Source: Actinoalloteichus hoggarensis
GTDB taxonomy: Bacteria > Actinomycetota > Actinomycetes > Mycobacteriales > Pseudonocardiaceae
Assembly (NCBI RefSeq): GCF_002234535.1
Contig: NZ_CP022521.1
Coordinates: forward strand, 5,502,001-5,566,000
DNA: 64,000 bases
Reading direction: 5' to 3'
In this document: piece by piece, positions 3,512 to 53,329 of the stretch
Layout of the letters: each line of letters starts with the position of its first letter
Numbering within the stretch: the stretch's first letter is position 1
Program-made: the position numbers and the translations under genes
Notes under the pieces: model-generated
Told to the model about the DNA's origin: nothing
Databases searched by the model: none
Seen by the model: only the letters and a program-made list of their open reading frames with translations

Positions 3512-4113
3512 TAGCCGGTCCGGTCGACCGGTGGTGCGGCGTGCAGGTGGTGCGGGCGCCTGCGGGGGTTCCTCGCAGGCCGCCGCGCCTGCGGTCGCGG
3601 ACCCAGTGCGCCGCCGAGGGCCGGGGCGTCGACGTCGCGGCGTGTCGCCGGCGGCGAGACCTCCGTGGCCGACGAAGGAGGCGGCGATGCGGGCGGCCCG
3701 CGCCGTGCGCCTCGAAGCCCTTCTCGGCGGAGAGCTTCAGTGTCGTGTCGATCAGCACGCCTGCTCCGCTCGGCGGCCCTTGTTCCGTCCACGGCGCAGG
3801 GTCGAGCCGAGCCCGTGGTGCGTCGGCAGCCGCGAGAGGCGGGGGCGACACCGGGTCGAGCCCGGTTCGTCGGCCTGGTAGCGCGGTGGCGCGGTTCCGG
3901 CGCCCCCTTGACCCGGCTGGTGACGACGTCACACTCCGGTCCGATGCCGTACCGCCCGACAAGGCCAGGCGATCGACGGGCCAGGCGATCGACGGGCCGG
4001 GTGCCGACGCGCACGGCCGAGTCGAGCGCATCGGGACGGCGTCGATCCGCGATCATGCCGAGCGGGGGCGTCCGGTTCGTCCCTCTCCCGCGTCGTCGGG
4101 CGGCGACCGCGAG
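3512..4113. other. Intergenic, no convincing gene
   Basis: Open frames exist on both strands but are Arg/Pro/Gly-rich, lack a plausible ribosome site and look like high-G+C background. A 16-bp unit (ggccaggcgatcgacg) occurs twice in tandem at 3963-3994. No terminator with a long stem was seen directly after fabF. Confidence 0.5.
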
Positions 4114-24167: not shown

Positions 24168-27100
24168 CTAAGCCGGTTGCGGCCCGGCGCCGGGCGTCTT
24201 CGGCTGCTCGGTCGCCCCCGCCGCGACGGCGCGCCCCGCGTTCGCCGACTCCGCGTCGGCGTCGACGGACGCCCCCTCCGCACGGGGCGATCCGTCGCCG
24301 GAGTCTCCGTTTCCGGCAGACCCTGCGGCGAGGCCGGGTGCTCCGCCCGGCCTCGCACCGTCCGCCGCCCGGTCGTCCGACGCCGCGCCGCCCGCCGGCG
24401 GGTCGTCCGCCACCGCCGCACCGTCCGCCACAGGCGCGGTCCCGCCCGCGTCCGCCCCGATCCGCACCGCGTCGACCGACGCCCCCGTGGGGCGGACACG
24501 GCCCCGCAGCCGCTGCGAGATCACCGTGCTGATGCCGTCGCCCCGCATACTCACGCCGTACAGCGCGTCGGCGATCTCCATCGTGGGCTTCTGGTGGGTG
24601 ATGATGAGCAGCTGCGAGGTCTCGCGAAGCTGTTCGAGGAGCCCGATCAGCCTGCGCAGGTTCGTGTCGTCCAGGGCGGCCTCGACCTCGTCCATCACGT
24701 AGAACGGCGACGGACGGGCCCGGAAGATCGCCACCAGCATCGCCACGGCCGTCAGCGACTTCTCGCCGCCGGAGAGCAGAGAAAGCCGCTTGACCTTCTT
24801 ACCGGGCGGCCGCGCCTCCACGTCGACACCGGTGGTCAGCATGTCGTCGGGCTCGGTCAGCACCAGCCTGCCCTCGCCGCCGGGGAACAGGGTGCCGAAG
24901 ACGATCTCGAACTCCCTGGCCACGTCGACGTAGGCGGTGGAGAAGACCTCGAGGATGCGCTCGTCGACGTCCTTGATCACCGTGAGCAGGTCTCGGCGGG
25001 TGGCCTTGAGATCCTCCAGCTGGGTGGACAGGAAGCGGTAGCGCTCCTCCAGCGCCGCGAACTCCTCCAACGCCAGCGGATTGACCTTGCCCAACAGCGC
25101 GAGATCCCGCTCGGCGCGCTTGGCCCGACGCTCCTGGGTGTCCCGGTCGAAGGGGATCGGCGCCGGGGCGGTCACCTCCTCGCCGCGTTCCCGTGCCGCC
25201 TCGTACTCGGCGGTCTCCGCCGCGCTCGGCGGCACGCCGACATCGGGTCCGTACTCGGCGGCGAGGTCTTCCAGCCCGATGCCGAAGTCCTCGGCGATCT
25301 TGGTCTCGAGCTGCTCCAGCCGCAGCCGTCGCTCGGCGCGCAGGACCTCGTCGCGGTGCACCGCGTCGGTCAGCTTCTCCAGCACGGCGGTCAGCTCGCG
25401 CGCGTGGTTGCGCACCGCCGTCAACGCCTGCTCCCGGTCGGCGCGGGCGGCCTGGGCGGCATCCCGCTCGTGGACGGCACGGCTCAATGAGACGGCGATC
25501 CGCCCGGCGGCCGTCTCGCCCGCGTCGACGACCGCCTTCGCCACGGCGGCACCGCGGCTCCGCGCCGCCCGAGCCGCCGCGAGCCGCGTCCGATTCTCCC
25601 GCTCGATCCGCGCCGCCCTGCGCAGCTGTTCGGCGCGGCCCTGCACGGACCGGGCCCGTTCCTCGGCCGTCCGCTGGACGAGCCGGGCGTCCATCTCGCG
25701 CTGCCGGGCCGTGCCGACGGCCTCGGCCGCCGCCTCCCGCTCGTCGGTGTCCGGCTCATGCTCCAGCGGCTCGGACTCGACCGCGGACAGCCGGTCCTCC
25801 GATTCCGCCAGGCCGCGCAGCGTCTGCTCGTGCGCGGACTCCACCTTGGCGCGGCGGGCCCGCAGCTGCTCCGCCTCGGTGCGTGCGGACTTCGCGACCT
25901 GACCGAGCCTGCTCAGCCGCTCGGTGCTGCGGGCCTTGCGCACCTTGGCCTCGTTGACCGACTCCTGCGCGGCCCGCACCGCCTCCCGGCGGTCCCGCTC
26001 CTCGGCCCGCGCGCCGTCCAACGCCGCCGAGTGGGCCGCCAGCCTGTCCTGCGCCGCCGCCAGCTCCCGGCGGGCGTCGTCCACCGCCGCCTGCACCTCG
26101 ATGACGCTCTGATCCCGGCCGGAGCCGCCCGAGGCGAAGTCCACACCGAGGACGTCACCCTCCGGGGTCACCGCCCGCAGGCCGGGAAGATCGGCGACCA
26201 GCGACTTCGCCGCGGCGAGATCGGCGACGACGACGATCTTGTCCAGTGCCCGCAGCACGGCGGGCCGCAACGTCTGCGGAGCACCGACCAGGTCGGCCGC
26301 CCACCGCGCGCCACGGGGCAGCTCCGGCCGGGCATCAGCCGCGACGGGCGGCGCACCGCCGATGAGCAGCCCCGCCCGACCGGTGTCCTCGGACTTCAGC
26401 AGCTCCAATGCCACCAGCGCGTCGTCGAGCCCGGCCAGCGCGACCGCGTCGGCGACCGGGCCGAGCGCTGCCGCCAGCGCCACCTCGGCGCCGGGCTCCA
26501 CGGTCAGCAGCGCGGCCACCGATCCGAGCAGGCCCGGCAGGCGTTCCCCCGCCGCGAGCAGCGCCCCCGCACCGTCCTTGCGGGACAACCCCAATGACAA
26601 GGCGTCGACCCGCGCGGTCCAGGCGGCGATGTCCCGTTCGGCGCCGCGTTCGGCGGCCACCAGCTCCGCGACCCGCTCCCTGGCCTGCTCCCGCTCGGCG
26701 GCCGCCGACCGGTGCAGCTCGCCGAGGTCCGCGTCATCGGTGTCCTGGCCGTCGTCGACGGCCTGCTGCTCCTCGAACTCCCTGGTGGCCGCGGCCGCCT
26801 TGTCCTCGGCCTCGGCCAGCGCCGTGGAGAGCCGTTCGATCTCCTCCTCGGTGGACGCCGCCTTGCTGCGCAGCACCTCCACCTGCCCGGCGAGCCTGGC
26901 CAGGCCCTCCCGCCGGTCGGCGATGGCACGCGCGGCGGCGACGTGCGCCTGCTCGACGGTCTTGAGCCGCTGTTCGGCCAGGCCCCTGGCCTCCACCGCG
27001 TCGGAGAGGTCGAAGCGAGCCTGTTCGAGCACCTCGGCGAGTTCGACCTCCGTCTCGGCGGCCTCCTCCGCCTCCGCCTCCAGCTCCTCCGGGTCGCGCC

Positions 27101-28070
27101 CGCCGCGCGGGCCCTCCAGCGGCGCGGTGAGGTGTCGGTACCGCTCGGCGGCCAGCCGCACGGTGCCGCGCAGCCGCTCCTCCAGCGAGGAGAGCCGGTA
27201 CCAGGTGTCCTGAGCGGCGTTGAGTCTCGGCGCGTCCTGCGCCAGCTGTTCCTCCAAGGCGGTCTGCTCCGCCTGGGCGACCTGGAGGGAGCGCTCCACC
27301 TCGGTACGGCGGGCGCGGACGGAGGCCTCGTCGGCCTCGTCCCTGGCCAGGTCGACGCGAGCCGTGACGAGGTCGTCGGCGATGAGCCGCAGTCGGGCGT
27401 CCCGCAGATCCGACTGGACCGCCTGCGCGCGCCTGGCGATCTCGGCCTGCTTGCCGAGCGGCTTGAGCTGTCGGCGCAGCTCGGCGGTGAGGTCGGTGAG
27501 TCGCGTCAGGTTGGCCTGCATCGCGTCGAGCTTCCGCAGCGCCTTCTCCTTGCGCTTGCGGTGCTTCAGGACGCCCGCGGCCTCCTCGATGAACGCGCGC
27601 CGCTCCTCCGGCTTGGACTCCAGGATCGAGGCGAGCTGTCCCTGTCCGACGATGACGTGCATCTCGCGGCCGATGCCGGAGTCCGACAGGAGCTCCTGGA
27701 TGTCGAGCAGCCTGCACGAGTCGCCGTTGATCTCGTACTCGGTGGCGCCCTCGCGGAACATCCGCCGCGTGATGGAGACCTCGGTGTACTCGATCGGCAG
27801 GGCTCCGTCGGAGTTGTCGATCGTCAGCGTCACCTCGGCGCGCCCGAGCGGGGCCCGACCGGAGGTTCCCGCGAAGATGACGTCCTCCATCTTCGCGCCG
27901 CGCAGTGCCTTGGCGCCCTTCTCGCCCATCACCCAGGTCAGCGCGTCCAGCACGTTGGACTTGCCGGAGCCGTTGGGACCGACCACGCAGGTGATGCCCG
28001 GTTCGAACCGCAGGGTGGTAGCCGAGGCGAAGGACTTGAAGCCCTTGAGCGTCAGGCTCTTCAGGTGCAC
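24168..28070 (-). CDS. smc: Chromosome segregation SMC ATPase
   Basis: 1300 residues. Walker A GPNGSGKSNVLDAL at 31-44 and a Q-loop in IVGQGQLASILESKPEERRAF. Two long coiled coils flank a hinge (about 500-650, GDVLGVDFASGGSGRDQS near its end). The signature LSGGEKSLTAVAM and Walker B YVMDEVEAALDD are at about 1095-1130. Residues about 1194-1300 are an unusual Ala/Asp/Gly-rich tail beyond the ATPase head. Partners ScpA and ScpB are not in the window. Single leftward gene. Confidence 0.97.
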   Translation of the reverse strand: MHLKSLTLKGFKSFASATTLRFEPGITCVVGPNGSGKSNVLDALTWVMGEKGAKALRGAKMEDVIFAGTSGRAPLGRAEVTLTIDNSDGALPIEYTEVSITRRMFREGATEYEINGDSCRLLDIQELLSDSGIGREMHVIVGQGQLASILESKPEERRAFIEEAAGVLKHRKRKEKALRKLDAMQANLTRLTDLTAELRRQLKPLGKQAEIARRAQAVQSDLRDARLRLIADDLVTARVDLARDEADEASVRARRTEVERSLQVAQAEQTALEEQLAQDAPRLNAAQDTWYRLSSLEERLRGTVRLAAERYRHLTAPLEGPRGGRDPEELEAEAEEAAETEVELAEVLEQARFDLSDAVEARGLAEQRLKTVEQAHVAAARAIADRREGLARLAGQVEVLRSKAASTEEEIERLSTALAEAEDKAAAATREFEEQQAVDDGQDTDDADLGELHRSAAAEREQARERVAELVAAERGAERDIAAWTARVDALSLGLSRKDGAGALLAAGERLPGLLGSVAALLTVEPGAEVALAAALGPVADAVALAGLDDALVALELLKSEDTGRAGLLIGGAPPVAADARPELPRGARWAADLVGAPQTLRPAVLRALDKIVVVADLAAAKSLVADLPGLRAVTPEGDVLGVDFASGGSGRDQSVIEVQAAVDDARRELAAAQDRLAAHSAALDGARAEERDRREAVRAAQESVNEAKVRKARSTERLSRLGQVAKSARTEAEQLRARRAKVESAHEQTLRGLAESEDRLSAVESEPLEHEPDTDEREAAAEAVGTARQREMDARLVQRTAEERARSVQGRAEQLRRAARIERENRTRLAAARAARSRGAAVAKAVVDAGETAAGRIAVSLSRAVHERDAAQAARADREQALTAVRNHARELTAVLEKLTDAVHRDEVLRAERRLRLEQLETKIAEDFGIGLEDLAAEYGPDVGVPPSAAETAEYEAARERGEEVTAPAPIPFDRDTQERRAKRAERDLALLGKVNPLALEEFAALEERYRFLSTQLEDLKATRRDLLTVIKDVDERILEVFSTAYVDVAREFEIVFGTLFPGGEGRLVLTEPDDMLTTGVDVEARPPGKKVKRLSLLSGGEKSLTAVAMLVAIFRARPSPFYVMDEVEAALDDTNLRRLIGLLEQLRETSQLLIITHQKPTMEIADALYGVSMRGDGISTVISQRLRGRVRPTGASVDAVRIGADAGGTAPVADGAAVADDPPAGGAASDDRAADGARPGGAPGLAAGSAGNGDSGDGSPRAEGASVDADAESANAGRAVAAGATEQPKTPGAGPQPA

Positions 28071-48505: not shown

Positions 48506-51500
48506 TCAGTTCAGCTCGATCAGCAGGTCACCGCCCTCCACCTGCGCGACGGAGCCGATCGCGAGCCGCCGGACGGTGCCGCCCTTCGGCGCCGTGATGC
48601 CCGCCTCCATCTTCATCGCCTCGATGGTGGCGACGGTCTGCCCCGGCTCCACCGTGTCGCCCTCGGCCACCGACACCGTCACCACACCGGCGAAGGGCGC
48701 CGCGATGTGGCCGGGGTTGCCGCGATCGGCCTTCTCCGCCGCGGGCACGGCCGACGCGATCGAGCGGTCCCGCACCTGAATGGGCCGGAGCTGGCCGTTC
48801 AACGTGGCCATCACGGTGCGCATCCCGCGCTCGTCCGCCTCGCCGATGGCCTCCACCGTGATGTACAGCCGCACACCCCGCTCCAGGTCGACCGAGTACT
48901 CCTCGCCGGGCCGCAGCCCGTAGAAGAAGTCCTTGCTGCGCAGCAGGCTCGTGTCGCCGTACTCCTCGTGGTGCGCGGTGTACTCCTTGGCCGGGCCGGG
49001 GAAGAGCAGCCGGTTCAACGTCGCGCGACGGTCCTCGGCGAGCCCCCGACGATCCTCCTCGGTGAGCGGCACGACCTGGCGTGCGCCGGAACGGCCCGCC
49101 AACGCCTTCGCGCGAAACGGCTCGGGCCAGCCGCCGGGCGGGTCGCCCAGCTCGCCGTGCAGGAAGCCGATCACGGAGTCCGGGATGTCGAAGCGCCCCG
49201 GGTCCGACTCGAACTCCGCGGGGTCCGCGCCCGCGCCCACCAGGTGGAGGGCCAGGTCGCCGACCACCTTGGACGACGGCGTGACCTTCACCAGCCTGCC
49301 CAGGATGCCGTCGGCCGCGGCATAGGTGGACTCGATCTCCTCGAACCGATCTCCCAGCCCGAGGGCGATGGCCTGCTGACGCAGGTTGGAGAGCTGACCG
49401 CCGGGGATCTCGTGGCGGTACACCCGGCCGGTCGGCGACGGCAGCGCCGACTCGAACGGCCGGTAGATCCGACGCACCGCCTCCCAGTAGGGCTCCAGGT
49501 CGCAGACCGACGACAGCCGGAGACCGGTGGCCCGAGGCGTGTGGTCGGTGGCGGCCACCACCGCGGACAGCGGCGGCTGCGAGGTGGTGCCCGCCATCGA
49601 CGCCGAGGCCCCGTCGACCGCGTCGACGCCCGCCTGCACGGCGGCCAGATAGGTGGCGAGCTGCCCGCCCGGCGTGTCATGGGTGTGCAGGTGGACGGGC
49701 AGGTCGAATTCGCGGCGCAACGCGCTGATCAGCGTCGCCGCGGCGGGCGGCCGGAGCAGACCGGCCATGTCCTTGACGCCGATGACGTGCGCGCCCGCCG
49801 CCACGATCTGCTCGGCGAGCCGCAGGTAGTAGTCCAGGGTGTAGAGCTTCTCGCCGGGGTCGGAGAGGTCGGCGGTGTAGCAGAGGGCGACCTCGGCGAC
49901 GGCCTGACCGGTCTCGCGGACGGCCTCGATCGCGGGTCGCATCTGCTCGACGTCGTTGAGGGCGTCGAAGATGCGGAAGACGTCGATGCCGGTCCTGGTC
50001 GCCTCGGCGACGAAGGCGCTGGTCACCTCCTCCGGGTACGGCGTGTACCCGACGGTGTTGCGCCCGCGCAGCAGCATCTGAAGACAGATGTTGGGCACCG
50101 CCTCGCGCAGCGCCGCGAGCCGCTCCCACGGGTCCTCGGCGAGGAACCGCAGCGCGACGTCGTAGGTGGCGCCGCCCCAGCATTCCAACGACAGCAGCTC
50201 GGGGGTCAGCCGCGCCACGTGCGGCGCGACGGCCAGCAGGTCCTTGGTGCGTACCCGGGTGGCCAGCAACGACTGGTGGGCGTCGCGGAAGGTCGTGTCG
50301 GTGACCCCCACCGCCTCGGAGGCACGCAGCCAGGACGCAAAGCCGGCGGGACCCAGCTCCAGCAGTCGCTGCCGGGAGCCTGCGGGCGGCACGGCCTCCA
50401 GATCGAGTTCGGGCAGCTTGTACATCGGGTCGAGCGTGCTCGGGCGGTCGCCGTGCGGGCGGTTCACCGTGACGTCGGCCAGGTAGGTGAGCAGCCGGGT
50501 GCCCCGGTCGGCGGACTGCCGCGCGGTGAGCAGCCTCGGGCGCTGCTCGATGAACGACGTGGTCACCCGGCCCGCCTGGAAGTCCGGGTCGTCCAGCACC
50601 GCCTGGAGGAAGGGGATGTTCGTGGCGACGCCTCGGATGCGGAACTCGGCCAGCGCCCGCCGGGCCCGCGCGGTGGCGGTGGCGAAGTCCCGGCCCCGGC
50701 AGGACAGCTTCACCAGCATCGAGTCGAAGTGCGCGCTGATCCCGGTGCCCGCGAAGGTGGTCCCGCCGTCGAGCCGGATGCCCGCACCGCCGGGCGAGCG
50801 GTAGGCACTGATGGTGCCGGTGTCCGGGCGGAAGCCGTTGCCGGGGTCCTCGGTGGTGATCCGGCACTGCAGGGCCGCCCCCCGCAGGGTGATGCGCTCC
50901 TGCGCCAACCCCAGGTCGGCGAGCGTCTCACCGGCGGCGATGCGCAGCTGAGACTGCACGAGGTCGACGTCGGTGACCTCCTCGGTGACCGTGTGCTCCA
51001 CCTGGATGCGCGGATTCATCTCGATGAACACGTGGTTGCCGCGCTCGTCGACGAGGAACTCCACGGTGCCCGCGTTGACATAGCCGATCTGGCGCGCGAA
51101 GGCGACGGCGTCGGCGCAGATCCGCTCGCGCAGCTCGGGATCGAGGTTGGGAGCGGGGGCGATCTCGATGACCTTCTGGTGTCGCCGCTGCACCGAACAG
51201 TCGCGTTCGAAGAGGTGGATGGCGTGGCCCACGCCGTCGGCGAGGATCTGCACCTCGATGTGCCGGGGATTGACGACGGCCTGTTCCAGGAACACGGTCG
51301 CGTCGCCGAAGGCGGACTCGGCCTCACGCATCGCCGCCTCGGCCGCCTCGCGCAGGTCGGCCGCGTTCTCCACGCGACGCATCCCCCGACCGCCGCCGCC
51401 CGCGACGGCCTTCACGAACACCGGGAACGTCATGTCCTGGGCGGCGGCGACGAGTTCGTCGATGTCGGCGGTCGGCGGGACGGAGGCGAGCACGGGCAGT

Positions 51501-51883
51501 CCGGCGGCCCTGGCCGCGTCCACCGCGCGCGCCTTGTTGCCCGCGAGTTCCAGGATCTCGTGCGAGGGGCCGACGAAGGTGATGCCCGCCTCGGCGCAGG
51601 CCTTGGCGAGTCCGGGGTTCTCGGAGAGGAAGCCGTAACCGGGGTAGACGGCGTCGGCGCCCGCGCGGCGGGCGGCGGCGACGATCTCGGCCACCGACAG
51701 GTAGGCGCGAACGGGATGCCCGGGCTCGCCGATCTCGTAGGCCTCGTCGGCCTTGAGCCGATGCACCGAGTTCCGGTCCTCATGCGGAAAGACGGCGACT
51801 GTTCCCGCCCCGAGCTCGTAAGCGGCGCGAAACGCCCGAATCGCGATCTCGCCTCGATTGGCGACCAGGACCTTCCGGAACAT
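48506..51883 (-). CDS. pyc: Pyruvate carboxylase
   Basis: 1125 residues from ATG 51883 behind ggaaggg. Makes oxaloacetate from pyruvate, bicarbonate and ATP. Biotin carboxylase domain (about 1-450: KVLVANRGEIAIRAFRAA, GGGGRGMR, EMNPRIQVEHTVTEEVTDVD). Carboxyltransferase (about 520-800: VTDTTFRDAHQSLLATRVRT, ECWGGATYDVALRFL, VHLHTHDTPGG). PYC/OADA domain, then biotinyl domain with Lys at about 1088 in EAMKMEAG. All parts are intact, in the usual order for the single-chain enzyme. Anaplerotic; single gene. Confidence 0.97.
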   Translation of the reverse strand: MFRKVLVANRGEIAIRAFRAAYELGAGTVAVFPHEDRNSVHRLKADEAYEIGEPGHPVRAYLSVAEIVAAARRAGADAVYPGYGFLSENPGLAKACAEAGITFVGPSHEILELAGNKARAVDAARAAGLPVLASVPPTADIDELVAAAQDMTFPVFVKAVAGGGGRGMRRVENAADLREAAEAAMREAESAFGDATVFLEQAVVNPRHIEVQILADGVGHAIHLFERDCSVQRRHQKVIEIAPAPNLDPELRERICADAVAFARQIGYVNAGTVEFLVDERGNHVFIEMNPRIQVEHTVTEEVTDVDLVQSQLRIAAGETLADLGLAQERITLRGAALQCRITTEDPGNGFRPDTGTISAYRSPGGAGIRLDGGTTFAGTGISAHFDSMLVKLSCRGRDFATATARARRALAEFRIRGVATNIPFLQAVLDDPDFQAGRVTTSFIEQRPRLLTARQSADRGTRLLTYLADVTVNRPHGDRPSTLDPMYKLPELDLEAVPPAGSRQRLLELGPAGFASWLRASEAVGVTDTTFRDAHQSLLATRVRTKDLLAVAPHVARLTPELLSLECWGGATYDVALRFLAEDPWERLAALREAVPNICLQMLLRGRNTVGYTPYPEEVTSAFVAEATRTGIDVFRIFDALNDVEQMRPAIEAVRETGQAVAEVALCYTADLSDPGEKLYTLDYYLRLAEQIVAAGAHVIGVKDMAGLLRPPAAATLISALRREFDLPVHLHTHDTPGGQLATYLAAVQAGVDAVDGASASMAGTTSQPPLSAVVAATDHTPRATGLRLSSVCDLEPYWEAVRRIYRPFESALPSPTGRVYRHEIPGGQLSNLRQQAIALGLGDRFEEIESTYAAADGILGRLVKVTPSSKVVGDLALHLVGAGADPAEFESDPGRFDIPDSVIGFLHGELGDPPGGWPEPFRAKALAGRSGARQVVPLTEEDRRGLAEDRRATLNRLLFPGPAKEYTAHHEEYGDTSLLRSKDFFYGLRPGEEYSVDLERGVRLYITVEAIGEADERGMRTVMATLNGQLRPIQVRDRSIASAVPAAEKADRGNPGHIAAPFAGVVTVSVAEGDTVEPGQTVATIEAMKMEAGITAPKGGTVRRLAIGSVAQVEGGDLLIELN

Positions 51884-52146: not shown

Positions 52147-52406
52147 GTCGCGATCCTCACCGGCTCCGCAGAGCCGGTGCCACCCCGGCAGGCCACGAGG
52201 GCTGTTGCGTCGTCCCGGACGATTGCGATCCTCACCGGCTCCGCAGAGCCGGTGCCACTCTTGCTGTCGCGGGCGGCTGACTTCGCGGCGACACCGTTGC
52301 GATCCTCACCGGCTCCGCAGAGTCGGTGCCACGAGCCGCGATCTCCTCGATCTCCTCGTCCTCGAAGTCGTTGCGATCCTCACCGGCTCCGCAGAGTCGG
52401 TGCCAC
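52147..52406. CRISPR. Short orphan CRISPR array, four 37-bp repeats
   Basis: Repeats at 52147-52183, 52222-52258, 52296-52332 and 52370-52406; spacers of 38, 37 and 37 bp, all different. The repeat begins GTTGCGATCCTCACC on the plus strand and ends GGTGCCAC. It contains a 9-bp hairpin: CACCGGCTC, CGCA, GAGCCGGTG. Repeats 1 and 2 vary at the first bases; repeats 3 and 4 carry GAGTCGGTG. Read on the minus strand the repeat ends in ATCGCAAC, like a crRNA 5' handle, and terminal repeat decay at 52147 agrees. The C-to-T change keeps pairing (G-U) only in plus-strand RNA, so direction is open. No cas gene in the window. Confidence 0.8.
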
Positions 52407-52620
52407 CCTGGCCTGCCAGGGGTGTCGTCTGTTCGAACGGGCTCAGGTTATCGGCTTGTGACCGACACGCCCGCAGATCGCTTGGGACCGACCCGGCGTG
52501 TCGGCCGACGCCTCCGGTCCCGAAGCACCCGGCCCGCCAGGAACCCCCGGCACGTCCGATTCAGCTGAGCTTCGATCTCGCGCCGGGGACGCGGCGGGCC
52601 GAGGCGACACCCTCTCGATC

Positions 52621-53289
52621 TCAGCGGACGACGTCCCGCAGACGCAGCGGAGCGGCGGGCGGCAGGGGCGCGGCGGGCTCGCCTCGGTCGGCGCGAAACC
52701 CCTCGATCAGGTAGGCGACCAACCTGCGGGACGCGGCCTCCCGGATCTCGGCGGAGTCCGCGACGATGCCGCCGTTGGCCATGAGCACCAGCGTCAGGTC
52801 CGCGGGCGTGAAGTCGGCCCGCAGCCGTCCGCTCGCCTGTGCTCGCCGTGTCAGCTCGGCGAACCCTCGGATCGCCTCCCCGCGTTCCCGTTCCACGTCG
52901 ATCGTGTCGCGCAGCGCCGCCGCCAAGGCGGCGCCGAAGCCTCGATCGCGGGCCTGCGTCAGACAGACGTACTCGATGACCGTGCGGAAGCCGCGCCACG
53001 GGTCCGGATCGTCCAATGCCGTGTCGACCACCGCGACGCACGCCGCGAACTGGCCGGCGAACACCGCGACCACCAACGACTCCTTGGTCGGGAAACGGCG
53101 GTAGAGGGTCGCCACTCCCACGCCTGCCCGCCGGGCGATCGCGGCCGTCGGCACGTCGAGCCCCCGAGCGGCGAAGAGCTCACCGGCCGCGTCCAGGATG
53201 CGCTCACGGTTGCGGCGGGCGTCCCCGCGCAGCGTGACCGGGGCGTCGGCGCCGGACGCGGCCGGCATCCGAGACGACTGCTCGCTCAT
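52621..53289 (-). CDS. TetR-family transcriptional regulator
   Basis: 222 residues from ATG 53289. N-terminal HTH (about 22-68): RERILDAAGELFAARGLDVP, TAAIARRAGVGVATLYRRFP. The C-terminal ligand domain includes a SBP/TetR_C-like region ending in an Arg-rich tail. The target is unknown; the divergent gene at 53450 is the nearest candidate. Confidence 0.93.
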   Translation of the reverse strand: MSEQSSRMPAASGADAPVTLRGDARRNRERILDAAGELFAARGLDVPTAAIARRAGVGVATLYRRFPTKESLVVAVFAGQFAACVAVVDTALDDPDPWRGFRTVIEYVCLTQARDRGFGAALAAALRDTIDVERERGEAIRGFAELTRRAQASGRLRADFTPADLTLVLMANGGIVADSAEIREAASRRLVAYLIEGFRADRGEPAAPLPPAAPLRLRDVVR

Positions 53290-53329
53290 CTTTCTCACTT
53301 CGCCGTCGAGATCGGGATCGCCTCCGCCA

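Follow-up and report, generated by a model that had tools for sequence, protein, structure and literature searches.

A short CRISPR array lies between a pyruvate carboxylase gene (pyc) and a gene for a TetR-family regulator in the window, the whole 64,000-nt stretch of DNA that was analysed from the soil actinomycete Actinoalloteichus hoggarensis. It is very probably an orphaned, leader-bearing satellite array of a type I-C system, one that probably no longer takes part in interference, and one of at least nine such loci in slow decay. It most likely survives as a record of earlier phage infections. In the literature consulted, we found no earlier description of the window array or of a dispersed, leader-bearing type I-C family.

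The source genome (G000; 6,606,717 bases in one contig) was compared with those of A. hymeniacidonis (G001), Actinoalloteichus fjordicus DSM 46855 (G002), Kutzneria viridogrisea (G021), A. caeruleus (G100) and A. spitiensis (G101), the names of G001 and G021 being inferred. Positions outside the window carry these labels. One Actinoalloteichus species has up to 37 CRISPR systems according to the available text of PMC8047081.

Organization of the array

CRISPR arrays are defined by direct repeats of ~23-50 nt, regular spacing, and unique spacers of similar length. This is the arrangement found at 52147-52406, where the starts of four near-identical 37-nt repeats are spaced 75, 74, and 74 nt apart and the unique spacers measure 37, 37, and 38 nt; the repeat number, the lengths, and the coordinates given in an earlier sequence-only reading are all confirmed. 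The array and its neighbors are made up as follows, in the direction of reading.

52621..53298, minus strand: TetR-family regulator gene (Pfam), upstream of the leader
52407..52526, minus strand: conserved CRISPR leader, ~120 nt
52147..52406, minus strand, read right to left: type I-C-family CRISPR array, four repeats and three spacers
52370..52406, minus strand: repeat R1, leader-proximal; stem-A variant common to R2
52333..52369, minus strand: spacer A, 37 nt, leader-proximal; without convincing match
52296..52332, minus strand: repeat R2, exactly as R1
52259..52295, minus strand: spacer B, 37 nt; without convincing match
52222..52258, minus strand: repeat R3, final base altered (ends AAT)
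52184..52221, minus strand: spacer C, 38 nt, leader-distal; encodes VRDDATALVACR, a phage terminase large subunit motif
52147..52183, minus strand: repeat R4, leader-distal terminal repeat; third-last base altered (ends GCGAC)
48506..51883, minus strand: pyruvate carboxylase gene, pyc (Pfam), downstream of the array

The minus-strand form of the repeat is GTGGCACCGRCTCTGCGGAGCCGGTGAGGATCGCAAC, and the four 34-nt repeat cores, at near-constant spacing, fall into two forms that differ by one base. Folding of the minus-strand form gives a 9-bp stem with a 4-nt loop, in agreement with the hairpin noted earlier. The repeat pattern occurs in 10 places in the source genome, and the reversed pattern in none. 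The spacers are indeed unique, as no 20-mer of any of the three was found elsewhere in the 176 records compared. The likely ATG of pyc is at 51883-51881 (start codon chosen by eye), 263 nt from R4.

The window had also been described as lacking cas genes, and none was seen in it when its 56 called proteins were searched with PADLOC (among the 25 of 53 matched families listed), nor among the matches listed when 18 of the 56 proteins were rescanned singly. Elsewhere in the window, at 24168-28070, a 1300-aa protein matches models of defence ATPases (mad3, LmuB, and others) and may, as a guess, be an SMC/SbcC-like ATPase. About 9 kb past the right end of the window begins a type I-E cas locus (G000:5575192-5592800) that has four arrays with short repeats.

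A conserved leader

A conserved leader at one end, with growth of the array at that end, is a common feature of CRISPR loci, and the window array has such a leader. It lies ahead of the first repeat, is ~120 nt long and nearly free of indels, and is conserved in the genus. Its elements are a spaced inverted repeat (CGACACGCC...GGCGTGTCG), a TAACCT box that is exact in 16 of 23 leaders, and the motif CCCTG-N6-CAGG before R1. Of 13 other leaders, 10 align with the window leader at E<=0.01; those without a match are two from Kutzneria and that at the A. hymeniacidonis effector operon. As a control, the far flank of the window array was compared with the same leaders, and none matched.

Additional evidence for the structure of the leader came from an alignment of 23 leaders across 161 columns. 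Pairing holds in 97.1% of cells for the repeat stem, in 93.7% for the spaced inverted repeat, and in 99.1% for CCCTG-N6-CAGG together with its outer pair; three, two, and none of their pairs, respectively, show changes on both sides. Taken together, the three pairings have 13 doubly changed cells, compared with an average of 2.8 in shuffles (none of 500 as high) and at most 3 in slid controls. The pairs with such changes number five, compared with an average of 2.4 in shuffles, and 18 of 500 shuffles reached five. The covariation thus backs the leader and repeat pairings as support rather than proof, because related sequences can exceed shuffles. The CCCTG-N6-CAGG motif abuts the first repeat (window 52406-52421; alignment columns 108-125) and is nearly invariant in the 23 leaders.

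Direction of the array

The direction of the array is settled as the minus strand, from the leader towards pyc, by four lines of sequence evidence: the position of the leader; the orientation of the relatives' cas operons, since in A. fjordicus and K. viridogrisea both operons and arrays follow the orientation in which the repeat is GTGG...CGCAAC; the degenerate repeats found opposite the leader in several arrays of the repeat family; and a variant base shared by R1 and R2. The verdict of the sequence-only reading that direction could not be resolved no longer stands.

The variant base is an A in the stem that is present in R1 and R2 and absent from R3 and R4. It forms an A.C mismatch in minus-strand RNA and a G.U pair in plus-strand RNA, so the earlier observation that it keeps pairing only in the plus strand is correct. 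The mismatch accompanies a folding energy of -14.2 kcal/mol for R1 versus -21.4 kcal/mol for R4, and the window's R1 is the only one of 23 leader-proximal repeats in which this pair is broken. We infer that the shared A marks the last repeat duplication, with the leader-proximal copy made in the latest acquisition, which points to polar growth at the leader end. A strand call from G.U pairs was also tried and rejected as too even: across 54 distinct repeats (four weak loci omitted), G.U pairing confined to minus RNA was seen at 19 pairs and that confined to plus RNA at 12, with 28 unpaired in both, in counts inflated by misaligned degenerate copies.

Assignment to type I-C

The repeat family is type I-C, an assignment made from sequence comparison because complete type I-C operons adjoin arrays of this family in two relatives. 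In K. viridogrisea, two arrays flank Cas3c, Cas5c, Cas8c, Cas4c, Cas1c, and Cas2c, with Cas7c in between. In A. fjordicus, two arrays flank Cas3c, Cas8c, Cas7c, Cas4c, and Cas1c, and tblastn added Cas5c and Cas2c. Both relatives thus have the repeat beside the full type I-C set of cas3, cas5c, cas8c, cas7c, cas4, cas1, and cas2. The window repeat belongs to the same family as these cas-adjoining repeats, with 3-5 differences in most copies. Ten proteins near the A. fjordicus arrays that lie away from its cas operon had no match in PADLOC. The earlier identification of an orphan CRISPR array therefore holds, given the relatives' cas operons, the conserved leader, and a spacer with a protein-level match to a phage gene.

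With up to 3 mismatches, the repeat was found in four of 100 genomes including the source (G000, G001, G002, and G021), and an exact-pattern scan of GTDB returned eight stretches from five organisms: A. caeruleus, A. spitiensis, Kutzneria, an Allokutzneria, and a Thermomonosporaceae bin.

Several other CRISPR systems are seen in the source genome, namely three type I-E Cas1 loci, one type I-B locus, a type I-C remnant, and one Cas10 locus. A satellite of type I-E, I-B, or III would share its repeat with that system, and the repeats differ: those examined from ten I-E and I-B arrays and from three arrays at the Cas10 locus are shorter and plainly unlike that of the window array. Use of the window array by the type III locus was considered and rejected, the Cas10 locus having its own arrays. 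That locus and its three short arrays of another repeat lie within G000:4638001-4658000.

An incomplete type I-C machinery

A complete type I-C cas operon was not found in the A. hoggarensis genome. What is left is an effector operon at G000:2961905-2967375, ~2.6 Mb from the window array, with cas5c, a broken cas8c, cas7c, and cas3. The Cas5c, Cas7c, and Cas3c frames are open, and cas8c (G000:2962663-2964170) is in two fragments in different frames, with ~427 bp missing relative to the A. hymeniacidonis gene. The operon sits where A. fjordicus has its complete type I-C locus, as judged by the flanks on both sides. It represents a diverged branch, with a Cas7c 57% identical to that of A. fjordicus, and no array of the window's repeat family lies beside it; because of this divergence and the lack of an adjoining family array, the operon may not have served these arrays. 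Beside the effector-only type I-C operon of A. hymeniacidonis are two degenerate family repeats and the 3' part of a leader.

The adaptation genes appear to be absent from the source genome by these searches. Type I-C Cas4 had no match in G000 or G001 and one match each in G002, G021, G100, and G101. No type I-C cas1 was found among the four Cas1 loci of G000, three of which are Cas1e (I-E) and one Cas1b (I-B), and no type I-C cas2 was found in the stretches around the effector operon, around three other arrays of this genome, or in the window. Type I-C interference has probably been lost as well, or would at least be badly impaired, since an internal segment and the reading frame are missing from the only Cas8c found.

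Origin of the spacers

CRISPR spacers typically come from phages or plasmids, and spacer C of the window array fits this pattern. Of 25 weak matches to phage records, the best 10 listed have E values of 0.04-0.1; nine of these 10 records are annotated as terminase large subunit and one as lysin B, and the same phage's other entry gives terminase at that place. A codon-degenerate pattern of the spacer matched 16 viral contigs in a collection of 2.9 million, some of which come from one genome and are not independent. All 16 matches occur in an LG[FL]DG[SA] context that resembles two annotated terminase genes, and the best is identical at 33 of 38 nt. These matches suggest that the source of spacer C was a phage or prophage whose terminase large subunit gene is of a type seen in actinophages. 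The spacer had no match in plasmids, its only match with up to 3 mismatches in 390 genomes of the family was the array itself, and Pfam returned nothing for the 50-aa TerL piece. Eighteen sites related to spacer C, none of them a true protospacer, have xTC in 17 cases and TTC in none, and xTC is found there because a conserved serine codon forces it. TTC is the PAM of a B. breve type I-C system, according to the accessible part of PMC12231136.

The other two spacers gave less. The sequence-only reading, counting spacers from the left, had taken the open frames of spacers 2 and 3 (here B and A) as a sign of phage or plasmid origin. Such frames do not show where the spacers came from: their peptide patterns, searched in one frame each, matched no viral contig in IMG/VR, and their DNA matches are weak and in mixed genes. 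Among phage records, spacer A matched weakly in unrelated genes (best 10 of 39 records), as did spacer B in two records, and spacer B had weak matches in six plasmid records. The phage-like spacer is instead the first from the left, spacer C. When 18 type I-C spacers of A. hoggarensis were compared with the DNA examined (E<=0.05), only short matches were found, none in the type I-C cas stretches; this search is blind to full-length identical matches, which were checked for the three window spacers only and occur nowhere else in that DNA.

Dispersed loci in the genus

The window array is one of a set. A sequence model of the leader plus first repeat, trained on loci that included four of the nine from A. 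hoggarensis, was searched in five genomes, and the inventory is a lower bound in that 150 of 9512 candidates were scored. At E<1e-20, at least nine loci were found in A. hoggarensis: G000:2357905 (1 repeat copy), 2893562 (2), 3718878 (3), 3720403 (6), 3744469 (2), 3864064 (5), 5321054 (4), 5425981 (1), and the window locus (4), with copies counted at up to 9 mismatches. Weaker loci are at 2867773, 3128026, and 4070719. Nine loci in A. fjordicus have 6, 11, 14, 8, 3, 5, 13, 2, and 2 copies (14 being the sum of two adjoining stretches), and five leadered loci in A. hymeniacidonis have 7, 11, 10, 1, and 11. Scattered single copies of the repeat had been named beforehand as evidence against a CRISPR array. 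One single copy does occur, at G000:5425981, but the leader comes along with it, and because of this we regard the locus as a CRISPR locus rather than a scattered repeat element.

Some sites are shared between species. G000:2357905 corresponds to the A. fjordicus site near 2479 kb, flanks and leader aligning through; A. fjordicus has six repeats there, and A. hoggarensis has one recognizable repeat plus decayed ones in a badly decayed array. The A. hoggarensis site near 3719 kb and the A. fjordicus site near 4171 kb have a common left flank up to the array, and those near 3744 and 4206 kb lie in the same interval between conserved blocks, possibly at different points in it. Near G000:4070719 and G002:4503971, where the flanks are ~93% identical, there is leader-like sequence without recognizable CRISPR repeats, which may have another role. 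The 5' parts of leaders without repeats occur near G002:5231797 and G002:3717006, the latter running into the apparent (by eye) end of a UvrD-type helicase gene.

Two sites are occupied only in A. hoggarensis among the species compared. The pyc-TetR site of A. fjordicus is collinear and has neither leader nor array, and neither was found in the ~1.4-1.5 kb upstream of pyc in A. hymeniacidonis, A. caeruleus, and A. spitiensis. The site of G000:5425981 has conserved flanks in A. fjordicus and A. hymeniacidonis, with no leader among the matches listed between them. Because the pyc site is without an array in four congeners, the one found there probably arose, by parsimony, in the A. hoggarensis lineage, and parsimony suggests the same for the 5425981 locus; loss of both loci in the congeners is a possible alternative to gain. 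The empty sites are not clean, and because the DNA around them has diverged, exact insertion could not be shown. No target-site duplication at the array ends was seen by eye in the flanks.

Interpretation and alternatives

If the array is transcribed at all, transcription would leave the leader (52407-52526) and run towards pyc on the minus strand. A type I-C Cas4-Cas1-Cas2 complex, not found in A. hoggarensis now, would have added spacers at the leader end. At present, type I-C adaptation would be off and DNA interference off or badly impaired. Cas5c cuts precursor RNA in type I-C systems, and the Cas5c of A. hoggarensis, whose frame is open, could still make crRNAs. Two observations weigh against this reading. 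The repeats of the window array are barely decayed, which means that loss of use was recent or that selection persists; and A. hymeniacidonis, also without a type I-C Cas4 match, has arrays of up to 11 repeats, so the loss of adaptation alone does not predict short arrays.

The good preservation of repeats and leader also suits an array that remains in use: the leader would drive its transcription, and the transcript would serve in trans the type I-C effector operon, with a functional split Cas8c, or a type I-E, I-B, or type III effector. The open Cas5c, Cas7c, and Cas3c frames are consistent with this, and one cas locus often serves several arrays, going by the text of PMC12814883 that was available. 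Such service is nevertheless improbable given the frameshifted Cas8c and its missing internal segment, and given that the repeats of the I-E, I-B, and Cas10-adjoining arrays are of another, shorter kind. The array could alternatively have taken on a regulatory role in cis for pyc, with a promoter in the leader and a transcript running towards the gene. Array and gene are on the same strand and close together, and the leader has the TAACCT box and a spaced palindrome. However, all four congeners have pyc without a leader or array upstream of it (within ~1.4-1.5 kb for three), sister loci lie elsewhere in the chromosome, and scans for promoters and terminators returned none of either, with no sigma-70 consensus promoter found; a role in pyc regulation is therefore very improbable. 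Lastly, a palindromic unit at many chromosomal sites might be a REP-like element or a structured RNA family rather than CRISPR. This can hardly be entertained: there was no Rfam match in the window, the regular spacing, the unique spacers, and the leader all tell against it, and the cas operons beside the same repeat in relatives are decisive.

An orphaned type I-C satellite array thus remains the preferred reading, and a further proposal concerns how such arrays come to be where they are. In this genus, the leader plus repeat may be a dispersing cassette, by which array starts are set down at new sites, such as those at pyc and 5425981, and then grown or decayed. The starts would consist of a leader of nearly fixed length with as few as one repeat, and a mechanism that may be akin to Cas1-Cas2 integration would create arrays anew instead of only lengthening existing ones. 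We consider this proposal quite doubtful.

As a single object, the window array is of an ordinary, known kind. The value lies in the set, since one genus holds many leader-bearing loci of one type I-C family. Its members differ in the state of the type I-C operon, which can be complete, reduced to effector genes that include an open cas8c frame (A. hymeniacidonis), or reduced to effector genes that include a broken cas8c (A. hoggarensis). The sites of these loci can be compared as shared, empty, or decayed, which makes the birth and decay of satellite arrays testable and raises the question of how leader-bearing loci reach new sites. Moreover, an array catalogued as orphan can be part of a distant, broken system, which comes to light only by comparison with relatives.

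Comparison with known systems

The closest parallels are the type I-C arrays of A. fjordicus and K. viridogrisea, whose 37-nt repeats belong to the same family and whose spacers, where compared, measure 33-40 nt; several of these arrays also have degenerate repeats at the end away from the leader. The A. fjordicus arrays share the window's leader, and the Kutzneria arrays have short leader matches. The difference is that two of the arrays in these relatives flank complete cas operons, whereas the window has no cas gene that was found and the type I-C machinery of A. hoggarensis is incomplete.

There are also parallels with systems in which several arrays depend on one cas locus, as described in the available portion of PMC12814883, where dispersed arrays likewise belong to one repeat family. 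In contrast to those systems, most A. hoggarensis loci have their own repeat variant, no common spacer was found among those compared, and the only type I-C effector operon found is broken. The orphan arrays described in the available portion of PMC8616872 resemble the window array in having no adjacent cas genes, in a genome seemingly stripped of much of the cognate system. Unlike the E. coli type I-F orphan arrays treated there, the 18 type I-C spacers of A. hoggarensis have no match to the type I-C cas loci examined. A further difference from the arrays of that source is that at least nine loci in A. hoggarensis belong to one family, and all of these have a conserved leader.
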